A stretch of 64,000 bases of DNA from Turicibacter sanguinis (lineage in GTDB: Bacteria; Bacillota_I; Bacilli_A; MOL361; Turicibacteraceae), in assembly GCF_013046825.1 (NCBI RefSeq), contig NZ_CP053187.1, forward strand, positions 2,080,001-2,144,000, in the 5' to 3' direction. Numbering within the stretch: position 1 is the first letter of the stretch; each line of letters begins with the position of its first letter. Positions 9,624 through 12,275 of this stretch are shown here, in pieces. The notes under the pieces are model-generated. The model made no database searches, was not told the DNA's origin, and worked only from the letters and a program-made list of their open reading frames with translations. The position numbers and the translations under genes were made by a program.

Positions 9624-9652
9624 TTGATTTTTGAAATGAATTACCTTAAAAT
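9624..9652 (+). promoter_or_regulatory. promoter of the T-box leader
   Basis: TTGATT at 9624-9629 and TAAAAT at 9647-9652 with 17 bases between, about 30 bases upstream of the T-box Stem I. Confidence 0.55.
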
Positions 9653-9683
9653 GTATTTAACAATTTGATTTGAATAAATCCTT

Positions 9684-9919
9684 TGACGAAGAAAGTAGCC
9701 ATAAGTTAATTGCAAAGCGAGCTAGAGTAGGTGTGAGTCTAGCCAATGCTTATGTGTGAAACGCCCTTCTATGGAGATTATCACAAATATACCTCGTATA
9801 GAGTATGATAATCGGGTACTCCCCTTAATGAGCAGAGCGGATGCAAGTTTTTGTATCAATTAGAGTGGTAACGCGGTCAGTAGGTCGTCTCTTATGTTTA
9901 TAAGAGATGACCTTTTTTT
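9684..9919 (+). promoter_or_regulatory. T-box riboswitch (tRNA-sensing leader), likely arginine-specific
   Basis: Stem I starts near GAAGAAAGTAG at 9689, with the upper helix CATAAGT/GCTTATG at about 9700-9754. The specifier-loop 3' side is GTGAAACGCCC, which aligns with GAAAGGC of the Bacillus glyQS leader and puts the specifier CGC (Arg) at 9762-9764. The T-box sequence AGAGTGGTAACGCGG lies at 9862-9876. The terminator stem GGTCGTCTCTTA/TAAGAGATGACC (9883-9894 with 9901-9912) ends in T's. Uncharged cognate tRNA would prevent termination and allow expression of the transporter. The amino acid identity is inference. Confidence 0.9.
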
Positions 9920-9959
9920 ATAAACATAGCCACTATTAATTGATAAGATAAACTTGGAT

Positions 9960-10017
9960 CAATAAGAGTGGTACCGCGGTTGAAAGATCGCCTCTTGATG
10001 AAAGAGGCGGTCTTTTT
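9960..10017 (+). promoter_or_regulatory. second, truncated T-box module (antiterminator/terminator only)
   Basis: AGAGTGGTACCGCGG at 9965-9979 is an intact T-box element. It is followed by an 11-pair terminator stem GATCGCCTCTT/AAGAGGCGGTC (9986-9996 with 10002-10012) and T's. Only about 45 bases separate it from the first terminator, too few for a Stem I with a specifier loop. It therefore looks like a partial duplication of the first leader. Confidence 0.85.
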
Positions 10018-10069
10018 TAATTGTCAAAAAAAATCGATTCAAATCAATTTATACAAGGAGGAGAAAACG

Positions 10070-10843
10070 ATGAAAAAAATGTTAATGATTTTAGGTTTAA
10101 TGTTAGTGGGCGTGGTAGGATGTTCACAAAATGGTGTGAGTGTTGAAAGTATCGAAAAGAACGGAAGTTTATTAGTCGGGTTATCGGCAGATTATCCACC
10201 TTTTGAATCAGTAAAAATGATTGATGGAAAGGAGACGTTAGTTGGATTTGATGTCATGTTAGCAGAAGAAATTGCGAATGAGTTGGGTGTTAAAGTTGAG
10301 TTTAAGCAAATGGATTTTAGTGGTTTAGTAGGAGCTTTACAAGCGAGTCAGGTTGATATGGTTATTTCAGGGATGAGTCCTGATGAGGAGCGTCAAAAGC
10401 AAGTTGATTTCTCAGATCTTTATTATACAGGGGAAAATGCTGTGTTAATTAGAACTGAAAGTGTTGACTCAATTAAGTCGGAAGATGATTTAAAAGGGAT
10501 TAAAATTGGGACACAATTAGGAAGTGTACAGTCACCAATTGCTTATGAGTTAACTGAGAATGTTAAAGAGTTAGCAACAACTCAAGCGATTGTATTAGAG
10601 TTAAGTAATGGGAATCTTGATGCGGTGATTGTTGGAAAAGAAATTGCGAATCGTTACGCTGAGCAGTTTGAAAATGTAGAAGTGGCTGATTTAAAAGTTT
10701 CATCTGAGGAGTATATGGCAGTTGCGATGCCAAAAGGTTCAACAGATTTAGTTGAGAAAGTGAATGAGGTTATCGCGAGTTTAAAAGCGAACGGTAAGTT
10801 AGATGAGATGTTAGAAGAGGCGATTACAATTTCAAATCAATAA
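10070..10843 (+). CDS. amino acid ABC transporter, substrate-binding lipoprotein (likely arginine)
   Basis: Extracytoplasmic solute-binding protein of the polar amino acid family (SBP_bac_3). A 257-residue precursor begins MKKMLMILGLML with lipobox VVGCS. The family signatures LLVGLSADYPPFE, GFDVMLAEEIANELG, and the GALQASQVDMVISGMSPDEERQKQ segment are present. The start at 10070 is set by AAGGAGGAG; a longer frame reading back through the T-box is not coding. The Arg-type T-box upstream suggests arginine, as for YqiX/ArtP relatives; the ligand is not proven. Confidence 0.92.
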   Translation: MKKMLMILGLMLVGVVGCSQNGVSVESIEKNGSLLVGLSADYPPFESVKMIDGKETLVGFDVMLAEEIANELGVKVEFKQMDFSGLVGALQASQVDMVISGMSPDEERQKQVDFSDLYYTGENAVLIRTESVDSIKSEDDLKGIKIGTQLGSVQSPIAYELTENVKELATTQAIVLELSNGNLDAVIVGKEIANRYAEQFENVEVADLKVSSEEYMAVAMPKGSTDLVEKVNEVIASLKANGKLDEMLEEAITISNQ

Positions 10844-10870
10844 TGATTTTAGGGAGTGCAGGTGAGAAAA

Positions 10871-11557
10871 ATGAGTTTTGAATTTTTAGTTGATTATTAT
10901 CCGATGTTGTTAAAGGGAACGGGTGTGACGATTGCGTTAGCATTGATTACCGTATTCTTTGGAACGCTTATTGGAATTTTGGTTTCGTTGACAAAGTTTA
11001 ATGCTAAAGGGATGCTCGGAAAAGTTTTAAGTAAGCTAGCCGATGCCTATGTGGCCTTTTTTAGGGGAACACCATTAATGATTCAATTGTTTATTTTATG
11101 GTTTGGGGTGCCACAGTTATTGCATACACGTTATCCATCGTTTGGATGGATTTCAGCTGAGTTTTTAGTTGGAGCCATTGCTTTAGCGATTAATTCAGGG
11201 GCTTATGTATCAGAGATTTTTAGAGCTGGAATTCAAGCGGTTGATAAAGGGCAATTTGAAGCGGGGCGTTCACTTGGTTTAAGTGAGAAACAAACGTTAA
11301 AGCATGTCATTTTACCACAGGCAGTGAAAAATATTTTACCGGCACTTGGAAATGAATTTGTTGTCATTATTAAGGAATCAGCAATTGTGTCAGTGATCGG
11401 ACTACGCGATTTAATGTATAATTCAGATATGATTCAAGCGGCAACGTTTAATGCTTTTGGTGTTTATGTGGTCGCGGCGGTGATTTATTTTATTTTAACG
11501 GCGTCATGTTCAAAATTATTATCTGTTTTAGAAGGGAGATTACATCAAGATGCTTAA
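10871..11557 (+). CDS. amino acid ABC transporter, permease
   Basis: Inner-membrane HisM/ArtQ-type permease of 228 residues with about five hydrophobic segments. It carries the EAA loop motif [22 protein letters not shown] near the C-terminal half, where the ATPase docks. The start is uncertain: GTG at 10856 and 10862 are also in frame. ATG at 10871 gives the usual family N-terminus and has AGGTGAG before it. It overlaps the ATPase gene by eight bases. Confidence 0.92.
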
Positions 11558-12275
11558 AGTTTGTGGGTTATCAAAATCTTTTCATGGTAAAAAAATCCTC
11601 AACTCTATTAATTTAGAGATTAAAGAGGGAGAAATTATTGCGATTATCGGACCTTCTGGATCAGGAAAATCGACGTTATTACGTTGCTTAAATTTATTGG
11701 AGGTTCCTGAGGAAGGAGAAGTGTTATTTGAGGGAACAAATTTATTAGATCCAAAGACTGATTTAAATCAAGTTCGTGAACAAATCGGGATGGTCTTTCA
11801 AAACTTTCATTTATTCCCGCATATGACGGTTGGAAAAAATATTACATTAGCGTTAAAGTTATTAAAGAAAATGGATGATAAGTCAGCGGATGAGATTGCA
11901 CTTAATTTGTTAACACGTGTTGGACTTGCCGATAAGTTTGATGCGTATCCATCTAAGTTATCAGGTGGACAAAAGCAACGTGTGGCCATTGCGAGATCAC
12001 TAGCTTTAAATCCGAAGTTAATGTTATTTGATGAACCTACCTCAGCACTTGATCCTGAGATGGTGAAAGAAGTATTAGATGTCATGAAAGAACTAGGAGA
12101 AGGTGGCATGACAATGGCGATTGTCACTCATGAGATGGGATTTGCCAGAAATGTAGCAACACGTGCCATCTTTATTGATGAAGGTCAAATTCTAGAAGAT
12201 ACGAAGCCGGAAGTATTATTTACGTCACCAACTCATCCCCGTACAAAAGAGTTTTTAGCGAAAGTTATGTATTAA
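11550..12275 (+). CDS. amino acid ABC transporter, ATP-binding protein
   Basis: Energising subunit of the same importer, 241 residues. It has Walker [11 protein letters not shown]-loop [13 protein letters not shown], signature LSGGQKQRV, Walker [14 protein letters not shown] and the switch histidine in VTHEM. It belongs to the GlnQ/HisP group. Its start overlaps the permease end, so the two are probably coupled in translation. Confidence 0.96.

Follow-up and report, generated by a model that had tools for sequence, protein, structure and literature searches.

A T-box class with a "duplicated terminator-antiterminator" was reportedly described by Vitreschak et al. in 2008 (RNA 14:717). The mode of action of "partially tandem" T-boxes was called unknown in a 2020 review, which also gives the aminoacylation sensor as RRRxG-Stem III-AA-antiterminator, with Stem III and the purines indispensable for binding of the tRNA 3′ end (PMC7583486). 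A 2025 survey covers tandem units that each have a complete sensor and expression platform, as well as tandem aptamers with one platform (PMC12452182).

The leader considered here is found in Turicibacter sanguinis, within a 64,000-nucleotide stretch (G000:C1:2080001-2144000 of a 3.0-Mb genome) that is referred to as the window and whose numbering is used below. It is located upstream of an amino-acid ABC-transporter operon on the forward strand, composed of genes for a lysine/arginine/ornithine-like substrate-binding lipoprotein (10070-10843; TIGR01096, 1e-41, below the curated cut-off), a polar amino-acid permease (10856-11557; TIGR01726, above the cut-off) and an ABC ATPase of the polar amino-acid type (11550-12275). 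A Shine-Dalgarno-like sequence, AGGAGGAG (10056-10063), resides ahead of the lipoprotein gene, and the product of the operon as a whole (10070-12275) is close to the lysine/arginine/ornithine type of polar amino-acid ABC transporter. On the 5′ side of the leader is a promoter-like sequence, TTGATT-17-TAAAAT (9624-9652, forward strand), which matches the consensus weakly, does not stand out clearly from shuffled sequence and is mostly retained in an alignment of five Turicibacter species. Far upstream, an rRNA operon ends within positions 1-1892 of the window (23S to 1728; 5S at 1784-1892).

The first module of the leader (9674-9895, forward strand) is a full class I T-box, with Stem I, a Stem II region, Stem III, the T-box and the antiterminator. 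It scores 116.1 bits against RF00230 (gathering score 93) with all 219 model positions matched, in agreement with the original prediction of a full-length first T-box, although its start falls about 10 nt before the 9684 given there. A purine string that supplies the RRRxG motif of the discriminator, as that motif is defined in the literature (PMC7583486), occupies 9830-9839 and lies 5′ to Stem III (9840-9857), which consists of a 5′ arm (9840-9846), a loop (9847-9850) and a 3′ arm (9851-9857). These elements are followed by the T-box 1 core, AGAGTGGTAACGCGG (9862-9876), with its tRNA-binding UGGU at 9866-9869, and by terminator 1 (9882-9919), a 14-bp stem (9882-9913) succeeded by seven T residues. 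An inverted-repeat search also returned an alternative hairpin, TATGTTTATAA/TTATAAACATA (9893-9928), with a perfect 11-bp stem that shares bases with the 3′ side of terminator 1. In the five species 83.6% of its alignment cells are paired, and its covariation among them is not above shuffles; this hairpin might hold terminator 1 open once the polymerase has read through. A scan for terminators yielded three terminator-like sites, compared with 0.2 in shuffles, the third being a weak site of 6 pairs.

In the register of the genome's other T-boxes, the putative specifier codon of module 1 is CGC (9762-9764, forward strand), in the context GUGAAA-CGC-C, and the specifier region, GUGAAACGCCC, is invariant in the five species. 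The assignment to CGC, and thus to arginine, is probable rather than firm because the C that follows is unusual at a place where a purine is common. The genome carries at least four genes for tRNA-Arg(ACG), whose acceptor end, G-CCA, can pair with UGGU via a U-G wobble, and the operon downstream of the leader is probably devoted to arginine uptake. Elsewhere in the same genome, on the reverse strand (G000:C1:238290-238820; loci L007, L011 and L047), two near-identical CGC (Arg) T-boxes form a full tandem before a second gene for an amino-acid substrate-binding protein (SBP), with the specifier context GAAG-CGC-A. The genome thus uses both a full and a partial tandem for what is probably arginine uptake.

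Downstream of module 1 is a second T-box core, AGAGTGGTACCGCGG (9965-9979, forward strand), 45 nt past the first T-run. As had been predicted, it has a strong terminator of its own, formed by a 15-bp stem (9982-10016) and a T-run (terminator 2, 9982-10018). The canonical 7-nt bulge, UGGUACC (9969-9975), is present, as is a full antiterminator (9965-9995) in which AGAG (9965-9968) pairs with CTCT (9992-9995) and GCG (9976-9978) with CGC (9989-9991), in competition with the terminator. The stretch 9896-10020 folds with a z-score of −6.75. Among the 16 T-box cores of the genome (at most one mismatch), this is the only one outside any full T-box match; an Rfam search over module 2 returned no T-box even at E<=10. 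The linker (9920-9964) displays no Stem I features and no conserved local fold among the five Turicibacter species, in two of which its local folding energy is only −1.1 and 0.0 kcal/mol. The observation that the second module has no Stem I holds, and the idea of a compact Stem I concealed in the linker was rejected on the Rfam result, the fold and the alignment. A PyrR site at 9892-10020 was also considered and rejected (25.6 bits against a cut-off of 54, a chance match). With one Stem I, two terminator-antiterminator units and no second complete T-box, the leader is a partially tandem rather than a fully tandem T-box.

Both modules occur in all five Turicibacter genomes examined, so that the second element has not been lost among relatives. 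T-box 2 and its flank are invariant, with ATCAATAAGAGTGGTACCGCGG identical in all five, whereas the linker between the modules is variable. Of a complete discriminator, module 2 itself supplies just the 3′ arm, AA and the antiterminator; RRRxG is lacking, and module 1 would have to provide the 5′ half. This bears on the suggestion, made in the original prediction, that module 2 binds the acceptor end of a tRNA without codon reading. A codon-independent starvation sensor of this kind, responsive to any free uncharged tRNA with a matching NCCA end, would be in keeping with the complete UGGUACC bulge and antiterminator. However, an antiterminator that lacks Stem III and the purines has no appreciable tRNA binding (PMC7583486), module 2 has neither the 5′ half of Stem III nor the RRRxG purines unless these are borrowed, and its complementarity to module 1, described next, would be left unexplained. 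We regard such a sensor as highly improbable.

Directly 5′ to T-box 2 lies a segment, AAACTTGGATC (9950-9960, forward strand), that is complementary to the 5′ arm and loop of Stem III (9840-9850). In the resulting helix, termed III*, 10 of 11 positions pair (91% of 11 nt), the single exception being a G-G mismatch (9843/9957). The preceding part of the linker (9929-9945, forward strand) is complementary to the 3′ arm of Stem III, the spacer and T-box 1, including its UGGU (9854-9869; z −4.7), and contains a perfect 9-nt inverted repeat (9854-9862/9937-9945); pairing of the linker with T-box 1 is significant in just 29 of 90 loci. When the window leader is folded without constraints, 9840-9869 pairs with 9929-9960 (10 + 16 bp), an arrangement that covers the UGGU of T-box 1 and leaves terminator 1 at the tip. 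Helix III* appears in the unconstrained minimum-energy folds of all five Turicibacter leaders, and pairs between the modules number 11.1, compared with 3.0 when the linkers are shuffled. For leaders transcribed as far as T-box 2, predicted energies favor III* over the original Stem III by 3.6-11.5 kcal/mol in 12 of 12 cases; these are energies of equilibrium folds without tRNA or polymerase.

It could be argued that the linker instead targets T-box 2, with GCCACU..AAUUGAU sequestering AUCAAU..AGUGGU in a local anti-antiterminator, so that termination would be the default state. Indeed, GCCACU pairs with AGUGGU when 9896-10020 is folded alone. In longer folds, however, the linker pairs with module 1, and the local hairpin is missing from two of the five species, so this arrangement seems quite unlikely.

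Within Turicibacter alone (five sequences), covariation in III* is modest: on the cell-based measures, 7-13 of 500 shuffles score as high, and controls in which the arm was slid are far lower. About 120 leaders of similar build were also compared. Left out of this set were L115, L155 and L157 (doubtful or chance matches), L131 (incomplete) and L074 (the same locus as L039). In a position-fixed test, which involves no optimisation, pairing is counted from the base of Stem III and the spacing of the new arm to T-box 2 is set equal to that of the old arm to T-box 1. Across 47 non-redundant loci, 322 of 470 pairs are formed at the first 10 positions, whereas permuted arms give 212 (sd 10; maximum 248 in 2000 permutations). 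The loop positions of Stem III taken by themselves show the same tendency, with 106 of 182 pairs compared with 79.7 (sd 6.4) and none of 2000 permutations reaching this value. Relative to dinucleotide shuffles, the duplex energy of III* has a Stouffer z of 9.2. Single T-boxes treated alike (n=25) display no exchange complementarity, with a Stouffer value of −0.45 compared with 15.3 in partial tandems.

Two clades provide independent evidence for covariation. In the first (22 sequences from Peptostreptococcaceae, Clostridium and Turicibacter), 86.4% of III* cells are paired, compared with 67.9% in shuffled and 35-47% in slid alignments. Double changes occur in all 11 pairs and amount to 43 cells, where 15.3 are expected from shuffles, and the covariation score is 0.607 rather than 0.269 (0 of 500 shuffles). 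Along the helix, the numbers of paired sequences out of 22 are 22, 22, 22, 21, 21, 21, 16, 18, 14, 14 and 18; III* thus extends over 11 positions, compared with about 5-7 for the original Stem III. In the second clade (12 sequences of Veillonella/Megasphaera), 79.6% of cells are paired, compared with 63.9% when shuffled and 18-44% when slid, and covariation is 0.527 compared with 0.254 (0 of 500). The anatomy, the complementarity between the modules and the conservation and covariation of that complementarity are thus all established from sequence.

Since module 2 duplicates part of module 1, some of the complementarity of the arm could simply reflect this ancestry: a copied 3′ arm would still match the old 5′ arm. 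Pairing of the loop and the linker is not explained in this way. In the first clade, 80 of 110 loop pairs are formed, whereas a pure copy of module 1 would give 44 of 110, and where exchange arms differ, pairing is kept 14 times and broken twice, with 5.3 kept expected at random. Because the loop is complementary, the arm differences mostly preserve pairing and the linker of the window is complementary to T-box 1, the pairing of the arm appears to be selected rather than merely inherited. We consider it very probable that III* is a real helix under selection.

The same observations weigh on the notion that module 2 merely reduces read-through as a passive second intrinsic terminator, with a T-box and arm left over from a partial duplication of module 1. 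Terminator 2 is strong, module 2 is without a sensor of its own and is similar in sequence to the 3′ portion of module 1 (TTGTATCAATTAGAGTG/TTGGATCAATAAGAGTG, 88%), all of which would suit such a role. Nonetheless, T-box 2, its bulge and the antiterminator pairing are retained in all five species while the linker diverges, the exchange arm is conserved and covaries, loop complementarity is not inherited by copying, and related arrays of three or four modules retain their T-box cores. A constitutive terminator, as had been proposed for this leader, does not account for the retention of the exchange arm, of the UGGU bulge or of pairing in the antiterminator, and we judge this reading unlikely.

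Leaders of this layout are by no means confined to the window. When sequences were scanned for a pair of T-box cores separated by a T-run, at least 119 DNA stretches were returned; Negativicutes, Clostridia, Bacilli, Synergistota, Chloroflexi and others are represented among the matches listed, and most of the leaders checked among these have a full RF00230 match at module 1. Given how many leaders share the layout, it constitutes a class and not an accident. On viral contigs, the arrangement of one Stem I with two T-boxes was not found. Leaders without a local Stem III usually have the purine motif in module 1 (57 of 75) and seldom in module 2 (6 of 75). In Lysinibacillus, Paenibacillus and Priestia, three or four modules occur in series, the later ones repeating the 3′ arm alone (TCTTCAC/TTTTCAT) while GTGAAG is found in the first module only; such a ratio, with one 5′ arm to several 3′ arms, is expected if Stem III is shared. 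Nine loci (L066, L078, L108, L122, L125, L152, L153, L163 and L169) have 3-4 antiterminator-terminator modules, spaced by ~86-93 nt, with one Stem I.

In a minority of partial tandems (L106, L134, L158 and L176 among them), Stem III is present locally in full, so that no exchange is needed. These raise the question of whether module 2 of the window leader has a complete discriminator of its own and shares only the nearby Stem I. Such an arrangement does hold for relatives with both a local Stem III and the purine motif (such as L106 and L134), and a weak local hairpin is possible in module 2 of the window, as it is in L038. A conserved local Stem III was nevertheless rejected for Turicibacter: the hairpin is not conserved there and module 2 has no RRRxG. 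Moreover, III* is stabler than any local hairpin in 92 of 97 leaders and stabler than the original Stem III in 90 of 97, which renders an independent discriminator in the window very unlikely.

Other variations were seen as well. In what looks like a second subtype (L106, L083, L088, L112, L130, L134, L098 and L176), module 2 appears with its own purine motif and Stem III, as though the discriminator had been duplicated whole. In about two dozen leaders, mostly of the Dialister type, Stem III was not called by the script. In Veillonella/Megasphaera-type leaders (L061, L065, L085, L095, L099, L105, L110, L113, L144 and L167), the sequence of T-box 1 itself seemingly goes into building terminator 1 (AGGGTGGTAC with GTGCCACCC-TTTTT), in contrast to ordinary terminators. 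At L004 1760-1980 (G000:C1 near 1291362), repeats ending in GGGGCTTTTTTT or AGGGGATTTT follow a single T-box and look like serial terminators without T-box cores.

Leaders of the same build in Peptostreptococcaceae have AGA (Arg) as specifier by the same register and, judging from the translations, precede argG, argC, ornithine carbamoyltransferase and SBP genes; the SBPs of Romboutsia (L139) and of the window share 45% identity. Among 392 genomes of the phylum set, the layout was not found outside Turicibacter. This restricted distribution, together with the Arg leaders of Peptostreptococcaceae, makes it likely that the whole Arg element has been exchanged between gut Firmicutes.

We favor, as the better-supported account, a scheme in which one Stem I and its tRNA are read twice through strand exchange in Stem III, with a single decoding domain serving two discriminators in turn. 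Module 1 would first act as an ordinary Arg T-box. Once the polymerase has moved past terminator 1 and module 2 has been made, the arm at 9950-9960 would pair with 9840-9850 and displace the old 3′ arm, the loop of Stem III probably acting as a toehold. Because transcription reaches the exchange arm only beyond terminator 1, the first decision has already fallen by then and the arm can do no more than set up the second. The linker (9929-9945) would then mask both T-box 1 and the old 3′ arm; discriminator 1 would thereby be dismantled, with terminator 1 forming harmlessly at the tip, while the purine string, III* and T-box 2 would compose a new discriminator beside the same Stem I. There, the tRNA held by Stem I would be re-tested: if uncharged, antiterminator 2 would form and the transport genes would be expressed; if charged, terminator 2 would form. 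Formation of III* during transcription and transfer of the same tRNA are inferred, as is the benefit, a tighter off-state in which leak is multiplied down and no second tRNA is needed. Weighing against the scheme, bound uncharged tRNA stabilises discriminator 1 and could block the exchange. Of the three roles originally offered for module 2, cooperation with the upstream Stem I is thus the best supported, although the route, strand exchange in Stem III, had not been foreseen.

By extension, we lean slightly toward the view that most partially tandem T-boxes are relays, in which the strand of each added module would invade the single Stem III loop and 5′ arm, dismantle the previous discriminator and rebuild it downstream. 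One tRNA would then be re-tested two to four times per transcription event, a form of proofreading by RNA alone. The breadth of the family suggests that a relay with one Stem I and two terminators is a widespread design. What is new here is the exchange complementarity between the 5′ arm and loop of Stem III and the bases 5′ to T-box 2; strand exchange in Stem III of T-boxes was not mentioned in the literature surveyed, outside which Vitreschak et al. 2008 lies. Helix III* thus offers a base-level prediction for how partially tandem T-boxes work. If it is borne out, serial decisions would be made by an RNA switch that uses the same sensor several times through toehold strand exchange, which would add stringency without a second tRNA and offer a natural template for multi-stage riboswitches. 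Annotation tools that count complete T-boxes alone would then miss widespread control of amino-acid genes, such as those for arginine in Peptostreptococcaceae and Turicibacter and for tryptophan in Sporomusa.

With respect to known systems, the window leader belongs among the partially tandem T-boxes, in which a single Stem I likewise precedes two units of antiterminator and terminator (PMC7583486). Fully tandem T-boxes, such as the Arg pair at G000:C1 238290-238820 and those of trp, thrS and others (PMC12452182), also place serial T-box terminators before amino-acid genes, but each of their units has its own Stem I and its own tRNA, whereas in the window one Stem I serves both. Relative to class I T-boxes (RF00230), module 1 is a full member, while module 2 alone amounts to the 3′ half of a discriminator. 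Finally, the purine and ZTP riboswitches likewise operate through cotranscriptional displacement of one helix strand (PMC10907184); in those RNAs the exchange sets the on or off state within one unit, whereas here it would shift the sensor to the next expression platform.
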